From Ulva prolifera (lineage: Eukaryota; Chlorophyta; Ulvophyceae; Ulvales; Ulvaceae), in the NCBI GenBank assembly GCA_023078555.1, contig CM041197.1, forward strand, positions 1,832,501-1,896,500: a DNA stretch of 64,000 nt, given 5' to 3'. Numbering within the stretch: the stretch's first letter is position 1; every line of letters starts with the position of its first letter. Below are positions 13,800-53,280 of the stretch, piece after piece. The position numbers and the translations under genes are program-made. The notes below the pieces were generated by a model. It was not told the origin of the DNA. It ran no database searches and worked only from the letters and a program-made list of their open reading frames with translations.

Positions 13800-13893
13800 G
13801 GGCGTATGGTCTAGTGGTATGATTCGTGCTTCGGGAAACACCGGAGATATTCGGGCATGCACGAGGTCGTGGGTTCGATTCCCACTTCGCCCC
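13800..13893 (+). tRNA. trnP-CGG: tRNA-Pro(CGG) with a 22-nt intron
   Basis: Acceptor GGGCGTA (13800) pairs with TTCGCCC (13886-13892), with one T-T mismatch, followed by discriminator C. D arm, anticodon stem CGTGC/GCACG, loop TTCGGG|T with anticodon CGG at 13832-13834, and T arm GTGGG-TTCGATT-CCCAC are all present. A-box and B-box promoter sequences are intact. A 22-nt intron (13836-13857) interrupts at the canonical 37/38 position and contains CCG, able to pair with the anticodon as in other pre-tRNAs. TTTT at 13896-13899 can serve as Pol III terminator. The array of large elements starts 15 bp downstream. Confidence 0.92.
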
Positions 13894-13910
13894 GGTTTTG
13901 TTTCCAACAA

Positions 13911-14450
13911 CCTTTTTGGCCACCTCGGCGGGACTGTCGGGCCCTGTTTTTCGGGCTGGGGGGGGGGGGGGGGGTGGCCACGGCGGCGGCTTTCGGGCCG
14001 GGGGGGGGGGGGGGGGGGGGGGGGGCTGTGGGGCTGTGGGCACCGGTTTTCAGCCAAACTCGCTGTCTCGCATGCAGCATGCGTCATGGACACTGCCACG
14101 CCATGCACTACACAACAGCGTTGGTGACACCTGGATCGCAGGTTCTGAGCAGGCGCACCCGCGGCTTTTTGGCCACCTCGGCGGGACTGTCGGGCCCTGT
14201 TTTTCGGGCTGGGGGGGGGGGGGGGGGGTGGCCACGGCGGCGGCTTTCGGGCCGGGGGGGGGGGGGGGGGGGGTGCTGTGGGGCTGTGGGGCTGTGGGCA
14301 CCGGTTTTCAGCCAAACTCGCTGTCTCGCATGCAGCATGCGTCATGGACACTGCCACGCCATGCACTACACAACAGCGTTGGTGACACCTGGATCGCAGG
14401 TTCTGGATCGCAGGTTCGGGGGTGACACCACACGGAGAATGTTATTTAGA
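13911..14450 (+). repeat. Element 5' end: two 253-bp tandem units with poly-G tracts
   Basis: The segment starting tttttggccacctcggcggg at 13913 recurs at 14166 (period 253 bp). Each unit holds gtcgggccctgtttttcgggct followed by poly-G, tggccacggcggcggctttcgggcc, a second poly-G tract, and then an AT-richer part with cagccaaactcgctgtctcg. Poly-G tracts are 13958-13974 (17), 14000-14025 (26), 14211-14228 (18) and 14254-14273 (20). One shorter unit occurs at the start of E6 (59,968-60,095). Apparent Gly- or Pro-rich open frames here are by-products of the homopolymers. Confidence 0.85.
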
Positions 14451-15650
14451 GGTAGTCTGCAAAGTGAGAGGCTCTTCTTGCAGGAGGCCATCTCTTGAGG
14501 TAAGTATGGAACTCTGGTTGGGCGGAATTGGGAGATACAGCATGCTGGACATTTGGCCTTGAGGAAGCTAATTCTGGCAACACAACATCAGTGGGAATGC
14601 AATTCGGGGTGTTTTGGGGTGCGTGTCTGGGAAGGTGCACATGTGCAGCTCAGCCCAGGGCACCGCGAGCAGCAATCATGGGAACTGCACACCGAGCAAT
14701 CTCCACGCACCCACGCAATGTCAGCACTTGCGCTGGCCACAGCCACACAGCCACACACACGACCACACCCACCCAGCAACACACTCAAGCCTCCCACCCA
14801 ACACCCACAAGCACACCCACAAGCCCACCCCCACCCACACCGGTCCGGCACAAAAGCCCAGAAAGCACATGCAGCCAAGGCCGCCGAGCACAGAAACAGC
14901 GAAACCCCAACAACAATCCCCACCCCGGGGAGGCCCCAGCCTCCTCCAGCACAACCCCTCTGCGCCCAGCTCCAGCGCACCACCCCGCCCACCTGCGAAA
15001 ACAGACCCACAACCCCAAAGACCAGCCCAGCCCGCCGCAATTGCAACCTACCTGGTCGCGCCCCAATGGCGGGCCACATGCAGACACACGGGGAAGACAG
15101 CGGCAACGCACGGCCCGCCAGATCCGCAACCACCACAAGGCGGACGGGCCACGAGCGCACGCGGCGACGATCCCCATCAGGCAGGCCAGGCGGGCGGGCT
15201 GCACCGCTCAGGCCAGATGGCCTGTGAGCGGCGTAGGGTCATCGGGCGGGACCGCGAGCCCTGTCAAAACTGCCTTCCCCGCATGACGCGCCATCAGCGG
15301 GGCAGCGGCGTGCACCTGTTGAGCCACCGTGCGGCACAGCGTTGTGTACAGGTCCCGCATGGTGTTCTCTGGGCATCCTCCAAGCATGCATGAATTTTGC
15401 ATGCATGCAAGCCACCGGGAACGTATGCTCAGTGATCGCGTGCACCTCAACGTCCTCAGCGGCATTCAGCGGCATGTGGCAGTACGAATGCCCATGGCAA
15501 ACTGGACCACAAGGGATGCGGGCGCTTGGGGTTGCTGGATGTTTGACATGGCATGCGGCTGAGGGGTGGCCACGGCAGTGGTCGTCACCGTGACAGCCAC
15601 GTTGGCCTTCAAGGCGCACGTACATCAGGCGCACAGATACCAGGCGTACT
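14451..15650 (+). other. Element 5' non-coding stretch, CA-rich
   Basis: Strongly C/A-biased stretch (for example cacacagccacacacacgacc), also present in E6 at about 60,095-61,310. It is open in several frames on both strands because stops are rare in this composition, but single-base insertions and deletions between the two copies shift every frame. I therefore call it non-coding, perhaps leader or promoter. Copies E2-E5 carry a different sequence here. Confidence 0.6.
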
Positions 15651-16059
15651 GACTATCGGCATTTCGACGAACATGTGTTCGGCAACTGTATATGTTGTCA
15701 GCGGTGGGCGCATGCAGCTGCGCAGCGTGTGGCTGGGGGCCGTCTGGAGAGACGCACATGCATGTGCAGCCGATCGGGATGGGCACTAGAGCCTGCCGTC
15801 TCCCTTGGTCATGGCAGCACATACAACATCTGACAGCATCTTCTTGGGGGGTGGAATCCGGGATAGGCCACTGCGTATGTGATGACGCTGTTGCAACACT
15901 TGTGAATCAGTTGTTCAGCACCCGTGCCAGTGTTCGACCGTGCACTAGGTGCAGCGTGACAGGAGGAACGTCCGGCGACCTGACGCACCGTTAGTAGAAC
16001 AGGCAGCAGCTCTTTTCAATAATAGTTCGGCTGTGTGGATAGCAGAGGTGGCTGCGGCA

Positions 16060-17235
16060 ATGACGGCGGGGCAGCGTCTGAAGGCAGGACAGGTGGGTGC
16101 GAAGTTGCGCAGCGGATGTGCGTGCAGGCACATGGTGGTAGGGGGTGGAAGCAGGGCGTGCGAGAGAATCTTGCACTGGCCTGCACTGCAGCACTCGACC
16201 CACACCGTCATTCCCCACGGTACAGTGATGTGACCTGAAATTCACAGGAAGTCACACCGCGTGCTGGTCATGCAGGAAGGCCCGGTCGGTGGTTCTGTGG
16301 CTGGGGTGCACGTGGAGCCCATGGCAGATGTGGATGGGGCAGCACGCATGGCCGCTGGCGTCCGCAGTCGCGATGCCCGTGTGGCTGGCGGCGGGCTGCG
16401 GCACCCGGAGCGGGTCAGCGACGTCTTCGCGATGCAGCAGCAGGTTGTGGCGGCGGTGCGGGTGGGGGCCATGTTTCCCGCGCTGCTGAGATCTGCGGGC
16501 ATGTGGGCCCTGCCGGATGTGTGGGTGCGGGTGGGGATATCCAAGGCGGGTGCCGAGGTTTACTTTGTGTTTGGGCAGCGCGTACGTGTACGCGTGCTGA
16601 CGGGTGCTCGCGTGGGACAGTTTTGGACGTCCATGGCTGCTGCCGCGGTGTGGAGGGTGGATGTTGGAGTGGGGTGGCAGCAGCCAGCGCCTGTGGATGT
16701 GTGTGTGTGGGTGCCGCGCCTGATTGGTGCGGCCGGGAGACGGCCAGGAACCCACCTCGCTGCGCGCGCCCGAGCTGGCACATGCTTCCAGCATATGAGT
16801 CGCCAGCCGTACGTAGGAAGGATTGATTTGGGAATACGCCTCTCTGTGAGGTGGTCGCCCGATGTGCGTGTCTACACCACCGAATATCTGCGGATGGGGT
16901 TCCTTACGCCAACTTCACCACCAGTGCATGACGGGGGTCAGCCGCAGTGACTGTATGCATGCCATGCTGTGTCTATTGTCTCTGCCGGTGGTACCTGCAT
17001 GCGACGGGATTGTGAAGTTGTTGAAGATTGTTTTTGCGGTGGGGTAGCCCCCCCCCCGGCGGTACATCAATATTGGCAGCTTTCCTTGCAGCTCAATTTT
17101 GTAACAATAACTCAGCCCAGCGAACCACCTGCTGTTTCGGCACCCGCCCACGTTGGATGTACCACAGTCGGACGGCTTCTTAGGAATCGTGACAATTCTG
17201 CGCTGTGGGAGTCTGCTCCGGTTGCAGTGACCTGA
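16060..17235 (+). CDS. S gene of E1, conserved element protein of unknown function (274 aa)
   Basis: Three exons: 16060-16092, 16276-16923 and 17102-less-10, i.e. 17092-17235, all phase 0 with gtgggt and gtgcat donors and ending in TGA. The product starts MTAGQRLKAGQ, continues EGPVGGSVAGVH and has a core rich in Val, Arg and aromatic residues (ISKAGAEVYFVFGQRVRV, PVDVCVWVPRLIGAAG, RLSVRWSPDVRVYTTEYL). No signal peptide, membrane helix or known motif is visible. The same gene occurs in E3, E4 (part), E5 and E6. Differences between E6 and the others in the last exon include third-position changes in this frame, which favours translation. Start and splice sites are inferred from phase and comparison between copies. 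Function unknown. Confidence 0.6.
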
Positions 17236-18109
17236 CCTGTGCTGTTTCGCACTTGAGACATGATTGCAGCACCTCCGGGCACTGCTATATATGAGCAGCA
17301 TCATTGCGCATCACTCACGGGCGCTGCACTGCTGGTGTCAAGCCTCACCATGGCAGCAGCAAGTGCCACCGTATCACCCTACTGACAGCCCAGAAGTTGG
17401 TAGTGGCTGGACGAAGGTTGCTGCGATGAAGCACTCATGATCAGGTGGCATGAACGCCTCACCACGTCACATCCAAAACACATGTGAAACAAGGCAACGC
17501 CAAAATCGACACAGAACCTGTCAACAGGACGAACAAGTAGCATGTCTTTGTGTGTCATCGGAGGTTCCATTTTGCCGAAAGTTTCAGGGCGAGGCGCGCA
17601 GATGTGGGGTTGGTCAGCGGCGGGTGCCATGCATACAGTTGCAGGCTTCGTGGCGAGAGGGCTGCACTGCCTGGACACCTGCATGTGGAGACAGGCGACG
17701 AAGGATGAATCGGTTGACTGATGCAACTCTGGAAAGTCGTGCATTCGTCTCTCAGCAGCTGTGCACGCGGGTTAATACGTGAGCAGACGGACGTCGTGTA
17801 CACAGAGTTGCATGTCAGTTACGATTTGTTCGACCTCTTGTTAGGCGAGCTCTGGCACGCATTGTGACATTTACATGGTAGAATTGAGATGAGCGTCTAG
17901 ATACGCACGTCTAGGCTTTGATTTAGAGTCGGTATTTGTCATCGCTGGAGCGTGGCAGCCTATTGCTTGAGTCGGAGATAGGTGCGACTGTCAGCTGGCG
18001 TGGCTGTGGGCGTACGCTTGCAAACTCGCACAGAGGCTCAGTGACCCACGGGCCGGGTCGGGCGCACCGAACCCCGAACACAGATCAGCGACGACGTGGG
18101 CAGGCAGCG
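17236..18109 (+). promoter_or_regulatory. S gene to giant gene spacer, probable 3' UTR and promoter
   Basis: About 870 bp kept with few changes in E1, E3, E5 and E6. Single-base indels between copies (for example at 17,703 versus 38,131) break the open frames, so it is probably non-coding: S gene 3' UTR followed by the giant-gene promoter and leader. It contains tatatatgag at about 17,287 and the imperfect palindrome cgtctagatacgcacgtctagg near 17,893. No defined promoter motif can be assigned. Confidence 0.4.
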
Positions 18110-21889
<3,780 letters not shown>

Positions 21890-22237
21890 GTGTGTATTCC
21901 ATGTTGCCCCCGCTGAATCCCATGTGCGTCTATGGCCTGTTCCGCGGACCCCACAGCGGTCTTGTGTTGTGTCACTTTGCGCGGGATCCCGACACATGCA
22001 TGCACGCATCATAAAGTGTTATTTGTCACCAACAACGCCACATACTTGAACTGCGGCAAAGCTGCCATACTGCATGTACATGTGAGTAACAATGCTGATA
22101 CTGTGCGGTGACTAGCGTATGTCTGTTGTGGCCGAACGCATCCGTTAGCATTCCATTCCTCACATGCTTAGTATCAGTTATGGCCACAGGGCAAAACCGC
22201 AAACATGTGTCGACACGGTGTGCAGAGTCAAGTGCAG

Positions 22238-24632
22238 CATCATGGACGCATCTGCAATGGCTCACCATGATGTTGTCATGCCGCGCCATGAGATGCAAGT
22301 GCGGAACTTGGCGTCACACCCGTTAGCCGTCTGGGATGACACAGATGCCAACTGGTACAAATGCATACCATGCCGTGGTGTGGAAGGCCAGAAGAAATCT
22401 GCGAGTGTAGCGTTGACATTCGCGCGTGGCTATCTGGCAGCGCTGGTGTCAGCTGTGGACGATCCAGCATTTGACCCTCGAGGAGATCCCAACCGCGCCC
22501 CCCCGGCTGAGATCTTAAATGACATGAAGAAATCATGCAACAGTGCAGGGGAGGTGCCAATGGGGGCCGTCGTGGAGTCATTCAGAAAGTGTCCCGGGCG
22601 TGTGTTTGGCCACACCTTGACGCTGCTGACATGGGCCGGTCACATAGGTAGTTTCAATACACTCGCCTTGTACAAGTACATTCTCACGGTCCTTGTGGAT
22701 GCGTATTGGGAGGGGCAATGGGAGCTGTTTCGCAGCGAAGCTTCTGTAGCCAAGGTGCGTTCATGCTTCCCATGTGCATCGATATGGTAGTGTGCGGCAG
22801 CATGCAATTACAAACGTCAGCATAAAGTGTCGTGTACACACTTCAAGGACCCGGCCATTTACGTGACGCGAGTGCGGCGTTGTTGACCCCTCACATGCAT
22901 TTAGAAGCGTGCTTGCCTGCAGGCTCATCGGGAGGCGTCTTATTTGTTCCGTGTATTCCAAATCAAAGTGCGGCTGTATGTGATGGCTCTCAAGGCGAAT
23001 GGTGCGATGAACACTCTAAAGCCAAAGCCGATGCAAGCCGCCGAGATCCGGAGCTGTGCTGAAGCCACTAACTGTGGCGCGATGACCATCATGTACGGGC
23101 GGGTGACGGCATTCTTGAAGATGCTTTCTGGAGCTCGGAACCCGGTCTTTGTGGCGTTGCGGTGGGGCCATATCCATTTCGTCCCAACCTACTACGTGGA
23201 CGAGGCGACTCGAACCACACAGGTGGGTTTGCCTCATTGACGTGTCTCCAACCTTGCATGCATGTGTCTTGTGGTCGATGGTTGCAGCATCATCCGCATG
23301 CATGCGCGTTATGCCTGCAACATTCGCATGCTCGCGCACCATGCATGCACCTCTCCGCCACAGTATCTGAATGGCGTGGTGCGTCATCGAGAGCTGACTC
23401 AGGGTTTCGTGAACAGGTAACATTTACATGTGAGTTTGCGATCGCATGGGACAAGGCCCCTAATGTGTTCGGCGTCAAGAACATTGTGGTGGACAGTACC
23501 GCAGCTCTCAACATTGAAGGAGCCGATTGGAACAGCAGCCTTGGTTCGGCTGGGGAGCATTTGTTGTCAATCGCAATTCACCAGAGGGTTGTCGATGTGG
23601 CAGATCTTGCGGGCCTGCCGATTGGAGAGCCATTCAAATTGAGTCATCTGATCAGAAGGCGTACGCTCACCAAGTTCGGGGACCCCACTCCAGCGGCTGT
23701 CGACGATATGTGCGTGGCTTCTCCATACTTGAAATCCATGTATCAATTCACATGTCCACCATTCCGGTTGCTGTGCTTCCCATGATGGGGTATAGAATTT
23801 TTGTCATGGGTCTGTTTGTTCACCCGCAAGGTTGATGCATGAGCTTGTTGTATGCAGGTTCTGCTTCTGTCGCTACCACGGCATGGTGCCACTACGATTC
23901 ATCCCCATGGCGCCATACGCCATGTCTGCCCTCTTGGCGCGATTCCTTGCCTCGACTGACATTCATGCATTGTCACGTGAGATGCGGACGGGGATGGTGT
24001 TTGGGCGCGTTATACAAGGGCACCTTCACCACAATGGCCACGAGAACAGAACGGCGATTGCTGTCGGTGGCCAATGGTCGACCAATTGCAACACATATCA
24101 AACAGATTACCTCCACCCTGCGTTCCTCAACGCATTGTTTGGAGATTTGGTGCGTCTCATGTGATCTGCACTTGTCGGAAAGGCGACTGCCCTGTGTGAT
24201 TGTGATTTATGTTGACATGATACCATGTGCTGGCCATGCTGTTGATGTATAATGGCAAATACATGACATCACACATGATGCAGGCCCTGTCTGACCTTGG
24301 TGTGCCATCGGCGATGAAGAACCTTGTCAAAACCGCTGCATTCAAGGCCTTACGCGTGCAGCGGGATGAAAACCCGTATGCGTTGGCGGTGTATCTACAT
24401 GCGGCCGTTGGGAACTTGTTCCTACAGAGTGTAGAGGGCACGCGGCAGTTGCGAGCTGCTGACATGCATGGTCGAGCTCTCCTAGACGCCAGCATGAGTG
24501 TTCATCAGACCGCTGGCGAGAGTGCTGTTGCCGCATACGGGTGGACATTGATCCGCAAGATGCACCCGCGCGGGCCCGGGCCACTCCATCTGTGGGGTGA
24601 GGACAAATACAAGCCCAGCGAGGACAGTGCAG
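22238..24632 (+). CDS. Giant element protein, exons 5-9: candidate tyrosine recombinase domain
   Basis: Exons 22238-22754, 22923-23222, 23417-23709, 23858-24149 and 24284-24632 continue exon 4 in phase (residues about 909-1492). Residues about 1105-1376 resemble a tyrosine-recombinase catalytic domain: helix QAAEIRSCAEA, then GARNPVFVALRWGHIHF, whose G-x-R...LRW-x-x-I spacing matches box I around the first catalytic Arg; a possible Lys at AWDKAPNVFGVKN; helix EHLLSIAIHQRVVDV; LSREMRTGM as candidate box II; and GGQWSTNCNTYQTDYLHP as the Trp/His plus Tyr end. The block recalls Crypton and Starship-captain enzymes more than phage integrases. The HxxR motif is not textbook, so this is inference. 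E5 keeps the proposed Arg, Lys, Trp and Tyr positions, and the last four exons have identical lengths there. Confidence 0.5.
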
Positions 24633-25770
24633 GTAAGAACACTAGCACGTCTTACAAAATATCTGTCATGTGCCTATTTTGCAAAGTGCATGTTCCGATA
24701 TCACAGTTTGCACGAGCCACTAGACGTCAACTGTTCACTCGGCCTTATGATCATCGTTGTTATGCATTTCCTTTGAATCGTTGTTCACCGTCCACTTTCT
24801 GCCCATGCAAGCGTGTTGTGGCAAGTTTGCAAACACCGTCGGCGGTCGACGCGGCTCAATGAAATTTGTTGTGGCTGTGTCACGACGGGCACTTACGTGA
24901 TTGCGATGCGAAGGTCTCTGTGTGGACCATCGGATGTGTGAACCATTTGTAGCTAAGATTTCCGTGACGGTCGCACCACTCTAGGCAGGGGGACATTGGT
25001 GGTGTTGTCTCGTGATTTTGGGATTGGGCGCTGCAAATTTTGTGTGAAGGGTTGGCCAATTGCGCCTACATTGGTCGTCGCGCGTAAAACGCATGTGCAT
25101 ATCAGTGGCCCGCTTGTATCGCCGCGTGTAAATCCGCTATTGGTCACTCCCCCATTTTCCGCCTAATTATGTTTCTGTTATGCCACCGCTGCTTTTGACC
25201 CATAAATGAATCGGGCTGCTGCCCGTTCGTTGACTGTGCGTTCGCGGGTAGAGGTGTCGCCGCTATCGTGGTGTAATCGTGTGTATGTATGATGTTGATT
25301 TGAAGGAGATTCGGTTTTGGTCTGTGTAAATGCGTAGGTGGCTTGCAGAATCACGCACGAGACACTAGCCCACGATGCCCATCAACAGTTCCACTTTTGG
25401 CCCTGTTGATGCCGCATCGTGCACCCTACCGTCCCGTCCTGGCACTGCTCACAGCACCATCATGTGATCAGCGTTAATGTGGAAGTTATTCACCGCTAAA
25501 ACTTATTGTTCACATGCGCATTGTTTACAGCGCACGTATGACTGTGTCTAGTACCCGCTGCTCGGTGGGGCATTGTGCGAAACATAAGCCAATTGCCCCC
25601 CGAATAACGTTGTCAATCAATCAAACCTTATATGCGCATGTTTGACAGTTGTACGTTTGGGAACTCGGCCGACATGCATGCATATTTGCACCCACTGTGT
25701 TGTCTGCATGCTGCTCCAATCGTTTCCACATGGCCACACGTGATGCTAATCGCGATTGATAACTGTGCAG
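24633..25770 (+). other. Intron 9 of the giant gene in E1
   Basis: 1,138-bp intron, AT-richer than its surroundings, with gtaaga donor and gtgcag acceptor. I see no gene or repeat in it. The same intron in E5 is 347 bp, unrelated in sequence, and carries two long poly-G tracts. Confidence 0.6.
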
Positions 25771-27370
25771 CGGAGGTGAAGGCCTTTTGCACCATGCTAC
25801 AGATTGGCGACGAGGTGCAGACGGCATGGTTGCACGAGTTGGAGGCTGCAGGTGGGGATCATGGTGTGGACTTGCGAAGCATGCTTAGCACGGCTAGCGG
25901 CAGCAAGATCTCATCTCCGCTGGAGGCCATGCGATCGGTTGGCGAGAGGGTCGTGGCCGACGTGTGTGACCACCTTGAAGATCGCGATGCTCAGACAGAG
26001 GGTTGCACTGTTGAGGACATTGCCGAAGACGTCGATCTCTGCCGATTTGGTCAAGAGATGTCCAATGCTGAGCTCTTCGGACAAGAGGGAGATTTCCTGT
26101 TGGAGCGCATGCGGAAACGCGAGTGCTTATACAATTCGGATGCAATGCGGCGGAAGCGGCTGACAAAACTTCGTGTCGGCACTGTTGAGGTGGAGGTTCG
26201 TGTTACCGCCTACTCATGTTCGGTAGCTCCTATATTGGTGCATGCCGCATATGCATATGTGCACCCAGCGGTTGGCAATGTTGCATTGTGGCAATGCATG
26301 TGTCGATGTTGAGACAGCCAACCTTGCTTGTTGGGTTGGTGTATCCGTTTCGCGACCTTTTTACACATGCATGGTGGGTTTGAGCTGCACCCGAGTCGCC
26401 CTCGTCACAGATGCATAGAAAATGGAGAGCCGCATCATGGCCACACGTGATTGAATGGTAGTGTTCACACATTCAAGATGTTGGCATGCAGGTGACCACG
26501 GAGGGCCTCAATGCGATCCTTGTCCACCGCAAGGCGACTTTGCAGCACTTCAGCATCCCGGTACAGAGGCCGCCGACGCTGAACATGCGGGACTGGATCT
26601 GGACCGCGGGCGGTGCGGGGTTCATGGGTGTCATTCGCCAAATACGGCAGGGCAACGACAGTTTGGAGCAAATGCTGCAGTATCTGCGCTTGGGTGCGAC
26701 CGCAACAACATTTGTGTTTTCCCTTGAGGGCTAGGTCTGTTGGTGAGTCGGCTGTCTACATGGCACAAGATTATGTTGATGCTCCACCGAAAATTTTGTT
26801 TCTCACAGCCCGCATGTTGTTGTAGAAAGAGCACCGGTGCCGGTGGTGGTGCGAAGCTACAAGTCGCTCGAGGTGGCAAATCCGGACATACCGCTTCAGG
26901 GCAAGTGCCTCGCTGTTGACTCCAAGAAATCGGCAGCGGGGGCGACGGGTGCAGACGAGCTGTGCCTTGCGGATACCGTGGGGGGGGTCAGCAATCAGAT
27001 GCATCTGTGCCCTCGCCACCTTCGGAAGCCGCTTCTTCTAATTGAAGATTTCCGTGGTACGCGGACCGCTGGCTTTGGGCGGTACTGCAAGAATACAGCG
27101 TGCAAGAAGGTTCTGGACATCGGGAATTTCACCGGATTTGCCACTGTTTGCAACATTCACAGGACAGGCGCAACGATGCTTGGCCGGAAGGCAGTGTTGC
27201 CGCCGGTGGATGAGGCATTTTACGGGGTGGCGGTGACTGAGCCACGGCTCGAGACTCTAGTCGCTGGCTCTGCCAATTTGCACAAACGCGATTTGACGCA
27301 TTGTGATGTCACCTCTTGCAGTGTGCTGCTAGAAAACCAGAAGACCGGCCTCTGCCCAAAGCATGTGAAG
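25771..27370 (+). CDS. Giant element protein, exons 10-12: linker and first zinc-ribbon-like units
   Basis: Exons 25771-26195, 26492-26693 and 26826-27370 (residues about 1493-1883) join in phases 1, 0 and 1. Exon 10 is acidic (DHLEDRDAQTEG, VEDIAEDVDLCRFGQEM) and predicted mostly helical. Exon 11 holds MRDWIWTAGGAGFMGVIRQIRQG. Exon 12 begins the Cys/His-rich part: LCPRHLRKP, CKNTACKKVLDIGNFTGFATVCNIH, and CDVTSC...GLCPKHVK. The second of these fits a C-x4-C...C-x2-H metal site. Function unknown; DNA or RNA binding is a reasonable guess. Similarity to E5 becomes near-identity abruptly just before exon 11. Confidence 0.55.
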
Positions 27371-27565
27371 GTGCTATTTCCATGCGTGTCTGCCCTAAGT
27401 CCACATGCCTTGCTATTCCATTCCACACGGGGTAGTGTTGTCGATTCAGTATTGCAGTACATGCATAAATAGATTGCCTTGCATGTGTTGTGAGTTTCAA
27501 ATTGGCACGTGAGTGTTTCTTCCTAAGATTTGCTTGTTAATTGACAAGGGATGTTTTTTTTGCAG

Positions 27566-29938
27566 ATCCCACGCCTGATCGATGCTAATGGGGTTGCTGC
27601 TGTCAGCTGCAGCCGCTGCTTCTACCTGAAGGAAGAGGGCCTTTTCGCACAGGACTCGCGCAACTGGAAGCGCCAATGCTGCGTGTGCCTGGAGATGGAC
27701 GCCCCGCGGCAGGAGCAGGACGAGCGAGTGCAGGCAGCATTGCCGCGTCCACCCGCACGTGCACCGGTGATGATCACCGCACGGATGCCAGCTGGCGCGC
27801 CCTGGCCGGGGAAGCTGACCGGCGCGCAATGCGCTGTGTATGTGTGGGACAAGAAGACGGAGGCATACGAGGCTTGCCCGGGGGGTTCGATGACACCTAG
27901 CAACCACCGGCACCCCTCCCGAGTGTGCCCCTATCACCGGAGCTGTGTCATCCACCACACAAATGCGCATGTTACATTTGAGAGAATGTTCTGCAATCGT
28001 TGCGCGCTGTGGAAGAGCCCGGACGCGTGGGTAACACGGGCCGACGGCACGACTGCGCGAAGCATTTGCAATGGTTGCGCTGAAGGCGGCGGTCCAAAGC
28101 GAGCTCCCGTGCGGCAAGTGCAGCATGGCACACAAACGCCCGACGGCTTGACCACTGTGCACCAGATCTTGCCCGACATGTCTGACGGCATGGAGTGGCT
28201 GCTTTTCTATGCCCCCAAGTCGCGTGCCAGTAAGGACACTGCATTCAACATGTGGCCGACTCGGGCGGACGAGTGCCATGTTGCCGGTTGCACCAACAGT
28301 GTCGGGCCCACGAAGTCAAGGGTGTGTTATCCTCACATTGATGATGTGTTGTTCCGACAAAGTCAAGACGGGTGGGATGCGACAGTCGTGTACTATTGTC
28401 GTGGGTGTCAGCGCTGGACGGACGTGAAGCTGTTGGAGGCAGACGGCACGTGCGGGTTGAGATGCGTGTTACGTGGGGATCGAGGGTCGAAGGCTCAGAT
28501 TGCGGGAGACAAGGACCTGAGACTCGTCCTCGAGCGTCTCCGGTCTGACCCGGCCCTCGCACTCCTGCCGGCTCGAGATTTCGCACGCGCCCTTGGGCTG
28601 CCCACGTGCGACATGCGGGACAAATCTGAGGTCACACGATGCCATTACATCGATAGTGTGAAGGGCCGTTGCAAGAATAAAATCTCGTTGACGCATGACA
28701 GCTGCATGTGCAGCGCCAAGCAGCACTGCCATGCAGTGGTGCTGAGGGTGTGCGATACAACAAGCGACGCCACAACGTGGTATTGCCCCAAGTGCAAGCG
28801 GGTCTGCTCCATCGAGGGGGTGGGCCTAGTGCGAGGCAGCTATGTATGCGCCCGCTGTTGTGCTGTACATGCGAAGCACCAGCAGGCAGCCGAGAAGGCT
28901 CGCATCGCCGAGCGAAAGGACGAGTCCTCGCCCGCAGGGAGTGTTCAGTTGTACAGTGATGAGGAAGATTTCGGCAATGCATGCTGTGTTTCCTCAGACA
29001 CTGGCGCGGAGGCTGAAGCCGTCGATGCTGATCAGCCTCCTTGTGATGTCGACACAGGTGACAGCGACGATGCACTCATGGGTGACGATTACGGCGCCTA
29101 CACCGAATCGGACTGTGATGGTGATGGGGTCGCCCTCATCGGAGAATGCATGCCCGTCGCGGCAGTGCAGGGACAGTCGGTGCCAGCCCCCGCACACGGT
29201 GGTGCAAGCTCAAGCCGGGCTGCTCTCGCGCAGACACCTGCTGACGCTGCAGTATTTGAATGCCTGCCGGCTCCGCCGCCCGGTCGCGCGCGTTGCCGCA
29301 ACGCGCCCGCGTGCAAGAAGACACTGCCGCCAGATCGGCTTGTCGACGGACTATGCATCACGTGCTTGTCGAGTTCGAAGGACAGTGGCACAGCTCTGGA
29401 CGCGATCGTGTTGGTGACTGTGCCGGGCACACTACATCGCAGCGCAGGTGCGATATTGAGCACATGCACTGAACTGTTAATTTGGTTGACATTTATAGGA
29501 TGACTTTGTGTGCACGACTCCTGGTGACTGCTCATGAGGACACGTTTACGCGTGAGTCAGTAGATGAGTGCACTGCGTGCATCCGTGTTGCAACTCAGCT
29601 AACGTCATTTGTGCATTTAATTGGCCAATGTCTTACACCAGTGTGCTGTGAAGGCACGCTTGACCTCGTGAAAGCCGATCTCATGGACGACGCGGCTGAT
29701 GGCGTGATTGTCCCGACCAACGCTCTGATGACGGATAAGGCTGCTAGGTACAACCACCGAAAGCGGCAGCGCTACGAAGCGAAGCCACTATCTGAGAAGG
29801 AGAAATTGCGGAAGGCGTACTCTGTGAGCATGCGGGCCGCACGCCGTAAGTCCAGCAAGGGCCTCAAAAACCTTGAGGCGGGCCCAGTCGCGAAAGCGAT
29901 GCGTGGTCGAACATCATCGAGTCGGCGATGTGAGCATG
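27566..29938 (+). CDS. Giant element protein, exons 13-14: tandem Cys/His zinc-ribbon-like region
   Basis: Exons 27566-29447 and 29642-29938 (residues about 1884-2609). Repeated CxxC pairs are spread along exon 13: CSRCFYL...CCVCLEM, CPYHRSC, CNRCALWKS...CNGC, CHVAGC...CYPHIDD, YYCRGCQRWT, MCSAKQHCHAV, YCPKCKRVC...CARCCAVH and CRNAPACKKT...CITC. Several follow one plan: CxxC, an aromatic/hydrophobic stretch of about 15-20 residues, then CxxC or CxxH. This suggests tandem zinc ribbons that bind nucleic acid or protein. An acidic segment (SDEEDFG, DTGDSDDALMGDDYG) separates the last ribbon. Exon 14 is basic (NHRKRQRYEAKPLSEKEK, RRKSSKG). An acceptor 12 nt further on is also in frame. Confidence 0.6.
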
Positions 29939-30248
29939 GTATGAACTCGGGGTCGTTCTGTTGTGTGACTGGAATCGCCCGCACGTGGTGTCCCTCCGCA
30001 CTGCTATGTATTAGAGTGACGTGGCCACCGAATGACCCCCTCCGCCTGGATCTGTGTCACGGTGCAGAAGTGTGATTTGTATTTGGCTGCGGCACAACAG
30101 GATGTGTCCACAAGGGTTGCTTGCGTAGGGTGCGTGCGCACGTATGAACACGAAAAAAATAAAATCTTTGTGTGTCAGCGATCACTGTGAATGCTTGTAT
30201 ACCATGCCAATACGGAGGTGTTCCGATGCTGTAGCACGCCTGTCGCAG

Positions 30249-31270
30249 TTGCGTTGCCAGCCGATGTGTCTACAAGGGTGGGGTCGGTTTGTGATGATGC
30301 CGACTATGCCAGTCCTTGCATTGATAGCACCTCGCTGACCGACCACATGCATGCAGCGTCATCAGCAATGCAAGTGATGGATGGGCTGCACAGTTTAAGC
30401 CTCGCGGACTGGACGAAGCTGGCAGCGGTGGAAGATGTGCTCCCTGACATCTCAGTCGAGGTGCCGATGTGGGTGAGGCAACGCAGCAAACAGACGCTGG
30501 TGGTCCAGGAGTTTGTTCCTGTCGGCTTTGACTTCAAGGCACCGCGGCCGTCCAAGACGCGGCCGATGAAGAAACAAGCACCGGCGCGAGCACGTGCGGG
30601 CGATGTGCAGGCATCCCAGGCTCAGCGGAGTGAGAACTCGGCGAGACTCCACATCGGGCTGTCTCACTGCAAGGCGGAAAAGGAACGCAGCGGCGACAAG
30701 GTACAGTGCCTCACGTACTCAATGCGCGTGCAGCACCTCTCCATGTCACGCGAAATGACAGCGCCACAACCCCAGATCGGCAAGGTGGACATTCGGTACC
30801 TCCAGTTGGTGAGGGACACAGGCGAGCTGCTCATTGCTCGAGCCTTTGACCCTGATGCCCATGGCTGTTTGCGCGTGACAGTGCACGTGACTACCATGCA
30901 GCTGCTGAAGCAGTTGCAGCAGCTCCCGCGTCCGACGCTGCCGGCGCTGCTGGCCCTGTTTGTGTGGGGCATCGCGCACTGCATCAAAGCTGTCCACGAG
31001 AGCTCGACAGACTCAAAAATTGCTGACCTGTCCAAGCTGATGTGGCACCATTCCTATGCGGAGGGCCTGTCGCTCTCATGGAAGCTCGTCCAGGTTGCTG
31101 CGGCCACGACTTGGGTCAACAGCGACGATGATGTCGGCACGGCCCTGTCGGTACTGGCCTGCATTCCCCGTGCAGCGCTCATCGGTTCAGAGCAGTTTGA
31201 CAAGACCTCCTGGGCGACCATCCTCGAGCGGTCACGGACGCGACAAGGGCACAGAGCACCACTTGATGAG
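30249..31270 (+). CDS. Giant element protein, exon 15: uncharacterised globular block
   Basis: A 1,022-nt exon (residues about 2610-2950). Only the acceptor at 30248 gives the phase that continues exon 14. It starts with a short Asp/Ser-rich part, then SLADWTKLAAVEDVLPDISVEVPMWVRQ, a basic proline-rich linker (APRPSKTRPMKKQAPARAR) and a folded-looking region with hydrophobic helices (LLKQLQQLPRPTLPALLALFVWGIAHCIKAVHE; SLSWKLVQVAAATTWV). No family was recognised. It sits between the zinc-ribbon region and the helicase, and has the same length and near-identical sequence in E5. Confidence 0.55.
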
Positions 31271-31426
31271 GTGCGCGCTGTTAAAATTCACCATCCTTGA
31301 GCATGAAGTGCTGCTGTGTGTGGTTCTGTGTTCGTGCATTGAGCCTGAGAGACATCTCGGCCGGCTTAAGCAAGCCCGGAAAATGTCAGTAGTGTCTGCC
31401 ATGAACTATACCTACGCAACATGCAG

Positions 31427-32344
31427 ATTCCATGGCCTGATGGATGTGACCCTGAAGTCATTGTGACATCGGGTTTTACACCTACTGACCTGACAAGTCT
31501 GAAGGCTGCCGCCAAGACGGACGCGACACGTCAGCAGTTTGCGTTCACCGCTGATGCCCGCGTACGTCCGGTTGGTGATGTCACGCGAGGGCAGGGTATC
31601 GGATCAAAGCGACGGGCATCAGCAGCCCGTGCAGCAGACAACGCGGGCGCGATCGATCTGACTGGTGACGGAGGCGCCTCTGCGCAGCCGCCAGCGATGC
31701 GTCGGAAAAGGGATACCAGCAGGAGTGGCCAGAGGGGCGTTCTTGCACCAGCCCGGCAAACGAAGTCACGGCAAGATCCTAGTTCAGGCGAGCGCAACAC
31801 GGGAGAGGTCTGCGCAGAAGCGATTGCTATCGTGGGCGATTGCGCGGGGACTGGAGGCCAGAAGCGTGCTAGGAGCCCCGTGCATGGGCACAGCGGCGCG
31901 CGGGCAAGTGATACCCCGAGCTCGCATGGAGGTGCAGGCAGCAGCAGTGGCACCGGCGTTGGTGAAGGCAGCATGGGACGCAACAGTCATGATGGAGCCC
32001 GAGGCGATATCGGCGGCGCTGCTAGGGGCGGCGGCGGCGGCGGCGACGGCGGCGGCGGTGACCCTGGGGGTGCTGGTGGGAGAGGCAGCGGCGGACCCAG
32101 ACGTGGCGCACGCTGGGCCCCTATTGATCACCGTGTGCCCGTCACAGTGCGCAATCCAACGCAGGTGGCCGCATTGCTGCAGTCATGCAAGGACACCACG
32201 GCACAGCCTTTCAGCTACAAGCTGAGGGTCAGAGACCAGCACATGGGACCTGGAAAGAGTGTCAGAGCCATCACCGGCGCGGTGTGCTCCTTCTTTGACC
32301 TTTGCCACATGCGCACTGACCCTCACGTCATGTCCGACTGTAGG
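31427..32344 (+). CDS. Giant element protein, exon 16: basic, Gly-rich linker before helicase
   Basis: A 918-nt exon (residues about 2951-3256), phase 0 at both ends. It opens IPWPDGCDPEVIVTSGFTP, then becomes low-complexity and basic (SKRRASAARAADN, MRRKRDTSRSGQRG), with a long Gly/Asp run near 32,020-32,100, and ends in a structured segment (DHRVPVTVRNPTQVAALLQ; SVRAITGAVCSFFDLCHM) that leads into the helicase. The linker is probably flexible. Confidence 0.55.
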
Positions 32345-32497
32345 GTGCGTGATATGTGTGTGCTTGTGATGGGCAATGTGCATGAAATGATATTGTCTCG
32401 TGCAGCATCTTTAAAAGAAAACACCGCTGTCACTGGTGTTTTGCCCTTTGTTATGTGACCCCTACCACGCAATGTACAAGGCTAGTCTTCCGTGCAG

Positions 32498-34645
32498 GAT
32501 CTGTTGCTGGCAGGACAGCCATCAGCCGACCATGCCAACGGAGTCATTGTTGTGGGCATGCCAGGGTCGGGCAAGACCGGGTTAATGCTGGACGCCCTCG
32601 CCCTGTCCGTTATCGGCTCGCCTCTGCGAACTGCAGCTCAGGGCAACACTGCTCAGCTGCCGGGGTTGACGCTCGATCAGGCAAAGCTAATGGTGCACAA
32701 GTCTGGTGTCACGCACAACATCGGGTTCCCCGCCGAGACGTGCTACAAGGCCATGGGCACCTACTTCTGGGAGCCGGCCTTGCCACCGCGACCAGCCGGA
32801 TATAATCGCCCGACCTTTGAGCGTGTGGCCGGCCGGAAGCTGCATGTGCTGGAGGAGGTGCAAGCGTGGGTGCAACAAGTGCCGCAGCTCTTCACCCAGC
32901 ATCAAAGAGGTCTTCAGCAGGCGAATATGGCAAGCGGGTCTGCCAATTTGCTCCGCCAGTGCCAGTACATTCTGTCGTGTGACCCGCACCAGAGCCCGTG
33001 CAAAACATACGGAATCACGAACATCGATCACCAAGGCAGGGTGCAACAAGAGAAGGCGGAGGTTGTTATGCCATGGACGGCTGTGTTCAACGCCCTCGGC
33101 CAGCCCTGCTCAACCATGCATTGGCACATCTTTGCGGTGCATGGTCAGAGGCGCCTGCGTGGCCTGGGCTTCCGGCTACTACACAATCCGTGCGCTCCTT
33201 GCCTGTGTGTTTGCTTTGTCATGGCTGCTATGATCGGGCTGGCACGTGGTACATGTGGTTGAGGGCACCGCGTGCTGTGCATCAGCACATTTACTGAACC
33301 GCGGCAGCTGCGTGGAGAATGTACCATCAATCACTGCAAGTGCTAGGGTTTGTCCGTGAGGGACATGGTTTGCTTTCAGGTCGAACGAGGACATCCGCAT
33401 GATGAAGGGTCGCAAGGTCAACCTCGCGACCAGCTTCAACTTCGTCACCTTTTGCACCTCTGATCTGAAGAAGACCCCGCGAGAGGCTGCGGAGCAGAAC
33501 ACGGGCATCAAAGGGGTCAACTTTGGCTGGCAGGAGGCTGGTGCGGACCCGGAGACCTACCGGAACCCGAACTACGCGATTGACCTGTCAGGGGAGGATC
33601 GCAGCCTTCCGACAGCCACTGTCGTCATCGCGCCGTACAAGGCAGACTGCAAAGAGCTGCGCGACATTCTGCTGACGCGCGCTGACTACCGGGCTCTCAT
33701 GTATTCATACAAGCGCACGGATGGTATGCGGCTCGGGCTCGGTGAGGGTACAACCTGCGAGATACCAGACGCTGTGTTTGCCGCAAGGGACGCGTATGCA
33801 TTCGAGTGCGCTTCGCAGCATCTCCCTGTGTGTGCTGCGTGCACGTGGGTAACCCTGAGGGCTAGTGTGTTGATTCCCATGTTCATGCAAAATGTGCTGG
33901 ACTGCTGAACCACATCGTTGTATTGTGCCCCACACAACTGCGGTGTCTAGGTGTGGGTGTGTGAATAGGTTGAAGTGTGGTGGTGCATGAGTTGCGCGCT
34001 GCTGCTTCACAGTTATTCTGACAAGCGTCAGTGCATGCAGCACGATGACGAAGGGTGGACAGAAGATGGTGCGACAGCTGGAGGACATGTCGTTCGCGAG
34101 CTGGGATTCCATCAAGATGTATCTGGGCGAGCCGATGCTTCTGACGGCGTGCCTCGGGCCGAGCCGGCCCAATGGGGCCTCGTGCTCGGCCGTGGCCTGG
34201 AAGTTTGTGGACACATCGACGGTGCGCGTGGAGTTCGAAAAGCGACTCGACTTCATGTGCAAGCAAGCGGACAGCCTGAAGGTCGCATGGACCCCCGTGC
34301 GGATGCGCACGGACACACATGACATAGACTCGGTCGAGAAGATTGCCTACAAGCTGCTGGAAGACTTCATCTCGGCAAATGAAGCCAAAGGCAAGATGCT
34401 CCTGCCCTATGTCGCGATCCGCTCGCCAGCCAACACCATGATCCTAGAGGCGCTGCACCCCGAGCCTGAGCTGGAGTTCGTGGTCAGGACGCGGAAGGTG
34501 GCTGCACTGCGAGTTCAGCTGCCCATTGTGCCGGCGGCGGTGCGCACGGCGTCGTCCATGCTGAGTGCGACCGTGGAGCTGTCCGGGCAGCGCGTGGTCG
34601 TGCACAGCAAGTCTGCAGCGGACACGACGCTAGACGCCAGCGCGC
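32498..34645 (+). CDS. Giant element protein, exons 17-19: P-loop SF1 helicase-like domain, 3' truncated
   Basis: Exon 17 (32498 to about 33,204) carries GVIVVGMPGSGKTGLML, a Walker A motif, at about residue 3275; RKLHVLEEVQAW in the position of motif II, with LEE rather than DE; and QYILSCDPHQSPC, resembling motif III (GDxxQ) of SF1/Pif1-type helicases. Exons 18 (33,380 to about 33,829) and 19 (34,041 onward) follow; VVIAPYKADCKELRDIL could be a later helicase motif. Donors of exons 17 and 18 are uncertain. At about 34,645 the sequence changes to the start of another element; the frame stays open to 34,914 but the added residues are foreign. The C-terminal helicase motifs may thus be missing. 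The replacements in motifs II and III leave ATPase activity uncertain. Confidence 0.5.
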
Positions 34646-34971
34646 CGGAGGCGACCTCCGCGCCACCCTCGGTCCCTGTTTTCTTTTGCGGGATGCCGGC
34701 GGGCCGCCGCGGCCGGCGTGGCCAGAGGTGCGTCGCTGCTGCGGCGCCCCGCTGCTCGATGCATGCTGTTTCCTTTTGGACTGTTGGACGGAACACGCCG
34801 ACGCGATGCGATCGGCATCGCGGAGTTTTTGGATGCAGATGCTTGGATTCGAAGCCGACGCCGCAGCTCCGACGCGGAGGCGAGGCCGATAGATACATGA
34901 ATGCAGGATGCTGAATATCATTCTTTTGATACTTGGAGGATGGTGGCTGCAGACACAAGGCTCGGTCCATT
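34644..34971 (+). mobile_element. Element E2: 5'-end fragment
   Basis: Begins gccggaggcgacctccgcgcc, shared with the starts at 34,974, 40,154 and 42,043, directly inside the last coding exon of E1. Its second half (from gacgccgacgcgatgcgatcgg to ggatggtggctgcagacacaagg) matches 35,566-35,730 of E3. It is cut by the start of E3 after about 330 bp. Confidence 0.65.
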
Positions 34972-37900
34972 CCGGCCGGAGGCGACCTCCGCGCCACCGT
35001 CGGGCCCTGTTTCCTTTTGGCCGCGACATGCGGCCGGCGTGGCCACAGGTGTCTCCGTGGCGGAGCGCCGACGAAGGCACCGCTGCAGAGGAACGTCGCG
35101 TAGTTGCCTGGTGTGCGGATGCAGCGAAGCCGACGCCGGCGTGGTGCAGCCGCCGGACACACGCCCGTACGTACATACATGCAGGAGGGCGGCTCGCGGC
35201 CCGGCCTCTGTCGTTTGCAACCGCATACAGGTTGCTGAACAGTAAACCTATGATATTTGGCGGATGGTGGCTGCAAACACGAGGCTTGGTCGTCTCCAGT
35301 CGGGTGCAGTGTTCCGTACCGCATGCGTCGCGTATGCATGCGCATTGGACAAGGGGGCGCGGCCGCTCGTGGATGGATGACATGGCACGCGGCTGAGGGC
35401 CGGCCACGGCAATTGATTCCCGTCGCATCGGACATGACGCATATGATCTGAATCGCGATGGTGATGCCTCGGCCGAGCCATCCGTGGCGCGGCGCAGCTG
35501 GAAGCCGCGTGGCCAGAGGTGCAGCGCGACTTTAACGCCCGGCACCGCTGCAGAGGGACGACGCCGACGCGATGCGATCGGCATCTCGGAGTTTTTGGAT
35601 GCAGATGCTTGGATTCGAAGCCGACGCCGCAGCTCCGACGCGGAGGCGAGGCCGATAGATACATGAATGCAGGATGCTGAATATCATACTTTTGATACTT
35701 GGAGGATGGTGGCTGCAAACACAAGGCTCGGTCGTCTCCAGTGTCGCGGCACAGTGTTGTCGTGCATTGACTATCTGTGCTGCTGCTGTATGTTGCTGTT
35801 GATTCGGATGAGATTCGGTTTCAGTGTTTGTTTTCTCGCGTTCACTCTTTTGTAAATACTAGCTGTGCTGCTCCTATGCATGCATGCGCGCGTGCATGCA
35901 GGCCACGGAGGACGGCCACGGCGTCAAATTAGGCGACATGGGAACGCGGGCGCTCATGGATGGATGACATGGCACGCGCATGACGGCAGACCACGAGAGT
36001 GGTCGTAACCGCGACAGGAGGCGCCGTTGGCCAGCAAGTCCATGGAGGAGGATATTTTCACGCAGTACACCATGCAGGGTGCTATCTCAGCATTTCGACG
36101 AACATGAGCTCCGCAACTGTATATGTGCTGTCAGCGGTGGGCGCATGCAGCTGCGAAGCGCGTGGCTGGGGGCCGTCTGGAGAGACGCACATGCATGTGC
36201 ATGTATAATTGCTGTCGACCGGGATGGGCTGAAGAGGCTGCCTTGTCGCTGGGACATGGCATCACATACAACAACTGACAGCATCTTCTTGGGTGGTGGA
36301 ATCCGGGATGGCCACTGCGTACGTGATTCACGCTGTTGTGATGAATCAGTTGTTCAGCGCTCGTGCCTGTGTACATGTTCGACCGTGCAGTAGGTGTGAC
36401 AAGGAGCACGACTAGCGACCTGACGCGCTGCTGGCCGAGCAGGCAGCCCTTCTTTTCAATCAGCCTTCGGCTGTGTGGGAGCGGCGATGGTGGCGGGACA
36501 GCGTTTGAAGCCGGCACAGGTGTGTGCGAAGTTGCTCGGCGGATGTGCGTGCAGGCACATGGTGGTAGGGGGTGGAAGCGGTGCGTGCGAGAGAATCTTG
36601 CTCTGGCTTGCACTGTAGCACTCGACACACACCGTCGTTCTCCATGTGTACAGTGATGCGATCTGCGATTCACAGGCTCTCACCTCGCGTGCTGATCATG
36701 CAGGAGGGGCTGGACGGTGGTTCCGTGGCAGGGGTGGAGCCCATGGCAGATGTGGATGGAGCAGCACGCATGGCCGCTGGTGTCCGCAGTCGCGATGCCC
36801 GTGTGGCTGGCGGCGGGCTGCGGCACCCGGAGCGGGTCAGCGACGTCTTCGCGATGCAGCAGCAGGTTGTGGCGGCGGTGCGGGTGGGGGCCATGTTTCC
36901 CGCGCTGCTGAGATCTGCGGGCATGTGGGCCCTCCCGGATGTGTGGGTGCGGGTGGGGATATCCAAGGCGGGTGCCGAGGTTTACTTTGTGTTTGGGCAG
37001 CGCGTACGCGTGCTGACGGGTGCTCGCGTGGGACAGTTTTGGTCGTCCATGGCGGCTGCCGCGGTGTGGAGGGTGGATGTTGGGGTGGGGTGGCAGCAGC
37101 GGGCGCCTGTGGATGTGTGTGTGTGGGTGCCGCGCCTGATTGGTGCGGCCGGGAGACGGCCAGGAACCCACCTCGCTGCGCGCGCCCGAGCTGGCACATG
37201 CTTCCAGCATATGAGTCGCCAGCCGTACATCGGAAGGATTGATTTGGGAATACGCCTCTCTGTGAGGTGGTCGCCCGATGTGCGTGTCTACACCACCGAA
37301 TATCTGCGGATGGGGTTCCTTACGCCAACTTCACCACCAGTGCATGACGGGGGTCAGCCGCAGTGACTGTATGCATGCCATGCTGTGTCTATTGTCTCTG
37401 CCGGTGGTACCTGCATGTGACGGGATTGTGAAGGTTGTTGAAGATTGTTTTTGCGGTGGGGTAGCCCCCCCCCCGGCGGTACATCAATATTGGCAGCTTT
37501 CCTTGCAGCTCAATTTTGTAACAATAACTCAGCCCAGCGAACCACCTGCTGTTTCGGCACCCGCCCTCGTTGGACGTACCACAGTCGGACGGCTTCTTAG
37601 GAATCGTGACAATTCTGCGCTGTGGGAGTCTGCTCCGGTTGCAGTGACCTGACCTGTGCTGTTTCGCACTTGAGACATGATTGCAGCACCTCCGGGCACT
37701 GCTATAGATGAGCAGCATCATTGCGCATCACTCACGGGCGCTGCACTGCTGGTGTCAAGCCTCACCATGGCAGCAGCAAGTGCCACCGTATCACCCTACT
37801 GACAGCCCAGAAGTTGGTAGTGGCTGGACGAAGGTTGCTGCGATGAAGCACTCATGATCAGGTGGCATGAACGCCTCACCACGTCACATCATGTGATGAT

Positions 37901-38481
37901 CCAAAACACATGTGAAACAAGGCAACGCCAAAATCGACACAGAACCTGTCAACAGGACCAACAAGTAGCATGTCTTTGTGTGTCATCGGAGGTTCCATTT
38001 TGCCGAAAGTTTCAGGGCGAGGCGCGCAGATGTGGGGTTGGTCAGCGGCGGGTGCCATGCATACAGTTGCAGGCTTCGTGGCGAGAGGGCTGCACTGCCT
38101 GGACACCTGCATGTGGAGACAGGCGACGAAGATGAATCGGTTGACTGATGCAACTCTGGAAAGTCGTGCATTCGTCTCTCAGCAGCTGTGCACGCGGGTT
38201 AATACGTAAGCAGACGGACGTCGTGTACACAGAGTTGCATGTCAGTTACTATTTGTTCGACCTCTTGTTAGGCGAGCTCTGGCACGCATTGTGACATTTA
38301 CATGGTAGAATTGAGATGAGCGTCTAGATACGCACGTCTAGGCTTTGATTTAGAGTTGGTATTTGTCATTGCTGGAGCGTGGCAGCCTATTGCTTGAGTC
38401 GGAGACAGGTGTGACTGTCAGCCGGCGTGGCTGTGGGCGTACGCCTGCAAACTCGCACAGAGGCTCAGTGACCCACGGGCC
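34972..38481 (+). mobile_element. Element E3: 5' end plus S gene, truncated
   Basis: Alternative 5' end (R type, 34,972 to about 35,780, with the submotif ggatggtggctgcaaacac repeated at about 35,262 and 35,702), a spacer, the S gene, and the spacer before the giant gene. It stops at 38,481 (cccacgggccg), about 60 bp before the giant-gene ATG in other copies. The stretch up to about 37,880 is almost identical to E5 at a fixed offset of 7,069 bp. Minus-strand open frames across the R region are unsupported by any indel-tolerant comparison and are not called. Confidence 0.7.
36487..37652 (+). CDS. S gene of E3 (270 aa), intact
   Basis: Exons 36487-36519, 36704-37339 and 37509-37652 give 813 nt in frame with the same splice sites as the E1 copy. 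Compared with E1 it lacks two residues in VAGV(HV)EP and two in the RVRV(RV)LTG repeat, and starts MVAGQRLKPAQ. No stop or frameshift is present, so it could still be expressed even though this element has lost its giant gene. Function unknown. Confidence 0.55.
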
Positions 38482-45594: not shown

Positions 45595-50153
<4,559 letters not shown>

Positions 50154-50350
50154 GTATGCGGCCACTCGTGTTTGTAATGAGTTCTACTGCCGTGCATGTC
50201 CCGCCTCCTCCGCACGAAAGCCATCTGTCATCATTGCAACGCATGCTGCCATTCACTGCAACGCACGCATGCATTGTGTGTTGAAACTATAGACGCCGGG
50301 CACATTCTCACCAGTAACGGCGAGCTTGCGTGAAGGATCAAGAACAGCAG

Positions 50351-52933: not shown

Positions 52934-52966
52934 GTGCGTTTTTTAAGTTCGTGGGGTAGGGTTTCG

Positions 52967-52967
<1 letters not shown>

Positions 52968-53007
<40 letters not shown>

Positions 53008-53108
53008 GCGTAGGCTAACCGAGTTGCAGGTGCTGTACGGCCTTTTGTGCATCCATGTCGGTTACTGTTCTTGTAGTTGAAAGGGGGGGGGGGGGGGGGG
53101 GGGGGGGG
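52968..53108 (+). repeat. Two poly-G tracts (38 and 26 bp) in intron 9 of E5
   Basis: G runs at 52968-53005 (38) and 53083-53108 (26), separated by 77 bp of ordinary sequence, fill much of the 347-bp intron between exons 9 and 10. The E1 intron has no poly-G. Confidence 0.9.
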
Positions 53109-53280
53109 CAATTGCAGGTGTAGTATTGAGCTCAATAGATGTGTTTCGGGAGGCGGTGTACCTGCGTAGGGTTCGGGTGCGGGTCATGAAGGACGGCCAT
53201 TGTCCGCAGGAGTGCACTCGCGTGATACTCAAACCTGTTGGTACTTTGCGTGTCACACACAGTGTGTCTTCGCTGTGCAG

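Follow-up and report, generated by a model that had tools for sequence, protein, structure and literature searches.

To our knowledge, a Pif1 helicase occurs among eukaryotic transposons only in Helitrons, where it goes together with an HUH nuclease, and the tyrosine recombinase (YR) elements described to date fall into small Cryptons, DIRS retroelements and Starships. Starships, found in fungi, are very large elements driven by a YR captain. Here we describe a locus of the green alga Ulva prolifera in which one long spliced gene, referred to below as the big gene, appears to combine a YR-like domain, a cysteine-rich region and a Pif1-like helicase. The window, that is, the whole stretch of 64,000 nucleotides that was analysed, covers C2:1832501-1896500 of an 88.9-Mb assembly of 44 contigs, and holds an array of copies of this gene. 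Chlorophyll a/b-binding proteins give 38 match rows in the assembly, in keeping with a photosynthetic eukaryote. On balance we favour the view that the big gene is the main gene of a YR-Pif1 mobile element, which nests in its own clusters and would encode a protein of approximately 3,700–3,840 residues.

The comparison with described systems is as follows. Library scans were run on the separate open reading frames (ORFs) of the exons, and the spliced full-length protein was not scanned as one piece. Some Cryptons carry accessory DNA-binding domains, and the word "helicase" does not occur in the main text of the Crypton paper (PMC3212892). The present locus is Crypton-like in being a probable DNA element with a YR-like domain and without a reverse transcriptase (RT), no RVT match having been found in the gene ORFs scanned. 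It differs in that the YR-like domain is part of a gene of 18 exons and 3.7 thousand residues, and in that the copies are clustered; a Crypton would have a YR only, whereas here a Pif1 helicase and a cysteine region are fused to it in one frame. DIRS and Ngaro elements have an RT with the YR, for which again no RVT match was found in the ORFs scanned, and none of the 150 RVT_1 matches scored, out of 452 candidates, falls within the window. Helitrons have an HUH Rep with Pif1, whereas the nuclease-like domain here matches YR box I; no Helitron_like_N or Rep match was obtained at the thresholds used in the exon ORFs, with exons 1, 9 and 15 and the spliced protein unscanned. The likeness to Starships lies in the very large size and the YR, and the difference in the fused helicase and in that the scanned ORFs gave no match to the DUF3435 captain. 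There is a weak resemblance of exon 10 to the CxC clusters that accompany KDZ transposases (PF18721, CxC6, E 0.053, which does not reach the cut-off), but no KDZ transposase match in the big-gene ORFs scanned.

Zepp long interspersed nuclear elements (LINEs) insert in nested fashion into their own copies, form one cluster per chromosome and have been proposed as the centromeres of Coccomyxa (PMC8226300). The present locus resembles Zepp and ZeppL of Coccomyxa and Chlamydomonas in its clusters and in the apparent nested insertion into own copies. Zepp is however a reverse-transcribing L1 LINE, and the scanned big-gene ORFs have no RT match. A review of giant transposons mentions tyrosine recombinases twice, each time in its bacterial section, and speaks of helicases in Helitrons, Teratorn and large viruses (PMC6431247). 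No YR-helicase transposon was listed in a search of the open-access literature that did not cover Repbase or most subscription journals. It is plausible that the locus represents a distinct class of large eukaryotic transposon.

The gene model was derived from the first copy in the window, copy A. It has 18 exons and 17 GT-AG introns, running from an ATG at 19313 to 34645 with phase kept throughout, and the joined frame of 3,731 residues contains no stops. An earlier note on this DNA had proposed 19 exons and about 3,840 residues: the single phase-kept frame stands, and the counts are replaced by those given here. The motifs that it named are all present and in the order it gave, namely SGARNPVF at residue 1090, GGQWS at 1332, TDYLHP at 1344, GMPGSGKT at 3164 and CDPHQ at 3305. 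Its left limit at 13908 has to be abandoned for the gene, because 13908–19312 lies outside the big gene and contains a separate repeated ORF (16261–16950), here called ORF2. In exon 2, Pfam gave DUF6655 at E 0.003, under the cut-off.

The model is well conserved among copies. In a translated search, 17 of the 18 exons lie within or overlap blocks matched colinearly in the copies on contig C6, the in-frame blocks being 43–87% identical, and the last exon was matched separately. The block order is also kept in more diverged copies on C1, C4 and C5, where some exons went undetected. Splice sites were compared with one C6 copy at 15 junctions, the first two being left out. The donor GT is at the aligned place in 12 of the 15, and in one more with the donor shifted by one base; the acceptor AG is also at the aligned place in 12 of the 15, with one more in which the acceptor is at 34040. 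Between the window and C6, the rates of synonymous (dS) and nonsynonymous (dN) substitution across 14 exons (2,567 codons) are 1.41 and 0.276, giving dN/dS of about 0.2. The dN is 0.093 in exon 4 and 0.157 in the helicase exon 16, and exons 5 and 9 have reached saturation at synonymous sites. Substitution across the big gene is strongly purifying. Together, the block conservation, the low dN/dS and the kept splice sites are what a single spliced gene under selection would show, and on this evidence we take the model to be more than chance and the gene to be real.

The domains encoded by the gene have been further analysed. Exon 16 contains helicase motifs I (GMPGSGKT), II (LEEVQ), III (CDPHQ) and a IV-like HGQRR. 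The predicted fold of this exon has a predicted local distance difference test score (pLDDT) of 75.9, and all 19 of the 19 best realigned structure matches are Pif1 helicases. The modelled core fold and the motifs are thus those of a Pif1-family helicase of superfamily 1B (SF1B), which bears out the SF1-like helicase of the earlier note and refines it. Helicase pieces searched against PDB and Pfam sequences gave only P-loop-type and chance matches, with AAA_19 at E 0.003 under the cut-off. Copy A ends inside its last exon at 34645, without helicase motif VI, which other copies retain; a C6 copy extends about 110 codons beyond the equivalent position to a stop, and includes a segment resembling SF1 motif VI. 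The CxxC pairs noted earlier between the recombinase-like block and the helicase are visible in exons 10 and 11; no homologous proteins were found for the exon-11 ORF in the relatives search. The same order of recombinase-like block, cysteine clusters and SF1 helicase, which had been proposed to form one long gene, recurs in the C1, C2, C4, C5 and C6 families (with some exons undetected in C1, C4 and C5).

Strong relatives of the helicase were found in public read and metagenome assemblies (n = 14). At least four of them (P0005, P0006, P0007 and P0015) look like the genome's own families. The element probably occurs beyond the present genome, because no genome copy among the matches listed corresponds to P0008 or P0009, which reach 62% and 61% against the window. 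The YR alignment retrieved four proteins, P0001–P0004, of which at least P0001 looks like the genome's own C6 family.

The recombinase-like block lies in exons 4–6. All five families (C1, C2, C4, C5 and C6) keep [SC]GxRNPxxxAxxW, DKxP with a second lysine, RFxFCRxHxMxPLR, [RKS]xxR, GQW and a tyrosine. In exon 6, R45, G73-Q74-W75 and Y86 are invariant in five of five rows, one row per family, and the lysines of the exon 5 segment are invariant in four of four. For comparison, a diverse profile of 70 YR sequences (Xer, Fim and viral-contig integrases) was built after a XerD-family profile had given no significance. It was made up of 11 of the 83 sequences of the XerD set and 60 of 80 loci, one sequence with a stop being dropped, and its members were picked for length and variety before the result was known. 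Exons 4–6 align to this profile in hhalign with a score of 30.25 (P 0.0014), which was reached by none of 300 column shuffles (best 22.6); two helicase control profiles score 14.0 and 11.7. Family residues 34–86 fall on the YR box I region, with the family arginine on Arg148 of XerD. Exon 4 is the sole standout among 16 exon blocks, with a score of 29.8 (P 0.00026), the next being 18.7. In local mode at a very low threshold, one of three hhalign modes, R248xxR251 of the family falls on H244xxR247 and Y292 on Y279 of the YR, and [RKS]-x-[LM]-R is a candidate counterpart of HxxR. Another candidate for HxxR, HENR in exon 6, was rejected, as it is not conserved (CQND, HNQ and HNH in other families). 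The likeness of exons 4–6 to a tyrosine recombinase is thus supported by the profile for the first half, and by motif order and invariance for the second.

A number of results weigh against this assignment. The probability given by hhalign itself is 17.8% for the YR match and 43.7% for exon 4 alone. Exons 5–6 remain unaligned to the YR in the two global hhalign modes, and alone they give no significant match to the 70-sequence profile. The XerD-family profile (83 sequences) scored 16.9, which was reached by 50 of 200 shuffles and is not significant. No YR appears among the Pfam, PHROGs and PDB sequence-profile matches of the YR pieces, where the matches noted are an unnamed PHROGs family (E 0.015), DUF2946 in Pfam (E 0.032) and RACK1 in PDB (E 0.33). 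PF00589 has no match anywhere in the genome at E up to 10, with 14 of 14 controls found; the sensitivity of that search is limited because the domain is split over exons, each searched apart. The first histidine of HxxR is replaced by R, K or S. Finally, the AlphaFold2 model of P0001, which corresponds to exons 4–5 with the intron read through, has a pLDDT of 31.8 and is unusable, and Foldseek gave no match for it at E 0.001 (best E 1.1). Its order of helices and strands is like that of a YR, to which we attach no weight. For the recombinase proposed by the earlier note, the profile match that was tested by shuffling is thus confined to box I, and the fold gives no support.

The copies in the window are arranged in a nested array. 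Copy A begins directly after a tRNA gene, and is cut at 34645 by the start of a second type of element, CGGAGGCG. The same type-2 start at C2:1,908,044 cuts exon 11 of another copy, at the equivalent of 29292. The P-loop exon of copy B is in turn cut, at the equivalent of 32563, by ACAACCTTTTTTGGCC, the same type-1 start as at 13905. The type-1 starts at 13905 and 59964, and the type-2 starts at 34645 and C2:1,908,044, are thus the same starts on unrelated flanks, and for each of the three nested 5' junctions a sister copy shows the site uncut. Copies A and B are 96–98% identical in DNA over most blocks and 72–80% identical over exons 4–8 (22966–26246 against 51103–53755), as if the YR part had been exchanged between subfamilies. 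The tRNA gene ends about a dozen bases before the array, and could be an insertion hot spot.

The distribution in the genome is strongly clustered. A 1-kb DNA probe has at least 28 genome matches at 99–100% and at least 6 at 69–70%. Of the 60 match rows for exon 6, 34 are on C1, C2, C4, C5 and C6, the other 26 being on small unplaced contigs, and 31 of the 34 lie within a single span of 260 kb per contig. As a yardstick, 15 of 81 RT matches on the same contigs fall within such spans (150 scored out of 452 candidates), and the RT matches listed are dispersed in the genome. The main clusters measure about 150–250 kb, with one per contig on C1, C2, C5 and C6. In all, five contigs have a tight main cluster, C3 and C7 have few matches, and C4 and C6 have second sites. 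The other sites are at C6 1.80–1.84 Mb and C4 6.86 Mb, with a lone one at C1 12.12 Mb. No matches of big-gene exons were obtained on C8–C10 in the genome searches made. With one main site per contig, the clusters are possibly centromeres. No telomere repeat was found at the two contig ends read. A weak exon-6-like match on the minus strand, C5:3342505-3342663, lies within an open frame of 2,630 residues, and may be an intron-poor relative.

The clusters have diverged from each other. For YR exon 6 and the helicase exons, the window is about 70–77% identical to C6, and about 30–43% to C1, C4 and C5, and the C2 array also holds copies 62–73% alike in exon 6 (unplaced contigs included). The subfamilies are not strictly bound to chromosomes, because helicase copies of the C1 type are found on C3 at 4.41 Mb (87–90%) and on C6 at 5.87 Mb (89%), as if they had spread between chromosomes. 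ORF2 is likely to be a second gene of the element. It has 68 match rows in big-gene clusters on C1, C2, C6 and unplaced contigs, and two other rows, one on C7 at 10 kb from the single helicase match of that contig, and a weak one at C4 0.66 Mb. On C6 and C1 its direction is opposite to that of the big gene; in the window both run the same way. Further copies of ORF2 in the window are at 36572–37366 and 43641–44435, with less complete ones within 41679–42314 and 61797–62459.

On the basis of these observations, we hypothesise that the YR would cut and rejoin the element ends and the target, that the zinc domains would bind element or target DNA, and that the Pif1 helicase would open an intermediate for replicative copying. 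Fresh copies would insert preferentially into older ones, as the three nested 5' junctions suggest. Unequal exchange would then spread segments, in keeping with a repeated unit of 18.8 kb and one shared truncation. At least five chromosome-size contigs would in this way have come to carry a main cluster each. These clusters might be the centromeres, in line with what has been proposed for Zepp LINEs in other green algae. Whether all of this amounts to a new class, in which a single spliced protein couples YR and Pif1, inserts into its own clusters and builds centromeres, is a more tentative proposal, on which we would lean towards doubt.

Some features of the array fit less well with a mobile element. 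Many of the repeats are tandem duplications. None of the copies has both of its ends in the sequence read, and two 3' regions that are intact run into a single-N join. On unplaced contigs, the helicase exon of seven copies ends at the same residue 25, and the spacing between neighbouring copies is about 18.8 kb; both point to segmental duplication at a later stage. These last two features, together with the largely chromosome-specific copy sets and the purifying selection throughout, could also be accounted for by a host gene family restricted to special regions of the chromosomes, centromeric or not, amplified by tandem duplication and gene conversion and not self-mobile, in which the YR-like and Pif1 domains were domesticated. 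This is unlikely, given that identical 5' starts stand on unrelated flanks, sister-copy exons included, that copies are broken, that C1-type copies occur on C3 and C6, and that the orientation of ORF2 relative to the big gene changes.

It could also be that exons 4–6 are not a YR, and that the locus holds some other element, such as a rolling-circle (Helitron-like) one that has diverged greatly, with its nuclease elsewhere in the protein beside Pif1. We give this a slightly smaller chance than the host family, since the YR profile singles out exon 4, in register, and the scan described above gave no Helitron_like_N match. An LHLW run in exon 7, tried as an HUH motif, is not conserved (H is replaced by K in C5 and by C in C4). 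Polinton-like and similar viruses carry YR integrases and helicases, so that an endogenous virus of this kind might bring both into one locus; a single spliced gene with 17 introns, the lack of a relative among the IMG/VR viral contigs scanned and the fact that the scanned ORFs, a part of those in the unit, match no capsid or polymerase make this very improbable.

If the YR-Pif1 fusion in a mobile element is true, helicase-coupled transposition has arisen with a second nuclease chemistry, and the locus provides a YR counterpart of the HUH-Pif1 pair of Helitrons. The clustering makes it testable how algal centromeres or similar regions fill with one element family. Such regions would then be filled by a DNA element, not a LINE or long terminal repeat element, with subfamilies largely separate per chromosome.

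Table 1 Features of the window, in window coordinates
Feature	Position	Strand	Basis or remark
Host tRNA gene with intron, left edge of the array	13800–13893	+	ARAGORN; Rfam RF00005, 49.2 bits
Type-1 element, 5' boundary, CAACCTTTTTGGCC	13905–13920	+	Self-blast, junction sequences
ORF2, 229 aa	16261–16950	+	Function not assigned by Pfam at E 0.5
Exons 1–3	19313–19413, 19493–21889, 22190–22754	+	Joined open frame; kept in C6 copies
Exon 4, YR-like box I, SGARNPVFVALRW, candidate catalytic Arg at residue 1093	22923–23222	+	Profile match, 70 YRs
Exon 5, WDKAPNVFGVK, hairpin-like segment, invariant lysines 1177 and 1185	23288–23709	+	Invariant in 4/4 rows
Exon 6, [RKS]-x-x-R, GQW and the Y of TDYLHP; remaining YR-like active-site residues (R1305, W1335, Y1346)	23858–24149	+	5/5 rows; profile path in 1/3 modes
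Exons 7–9	24284–24632, 25771–26195, 26492–26693	+	C6 block matches, joined frame
Exons 10–11, cysteine-pair, zinc-ribbon-like region	26826–27370, 27566–29447	+	Visible cysteine pairs
Exons 12–15	29642–29929, 30357–31270, 31427–32075, 32183–32283	+	C6 block matches, joined frame
Exon 16, helicase motifs I–III and IV-like, Pif1-like fold	32498–33204	+	
Exons 17–18, helicase, broken at 34645 before motif VI	33380–33829, 34041–34645	+	Joined frame, comparison with other copies
Type-2 element, 5' start CGGAGGCGACCTCC, 5' region with ORF2 copy (36572–37366); interrupts exon 18 of copy A	34646–38482	+	
Further direct copies of the 5' region	40145–46110	+	
Gene copy B, interrupted at the P-loop where copy C starts	46111–59963	+	
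Start of copy C, which continues beyond the window	59964–64000	+	

Two minor features of the array are worth adding. Following the type-2 start, 34646–34914 has many weak protein-level matches dispersed over the large contigs, and is perhaps an unrelated dispersed repeat. A (CA)n tract of 1.3 kb lies at 46310–47585, upstream of the copy B gene, and one of 148 bases at 18982–19129 in copy A.

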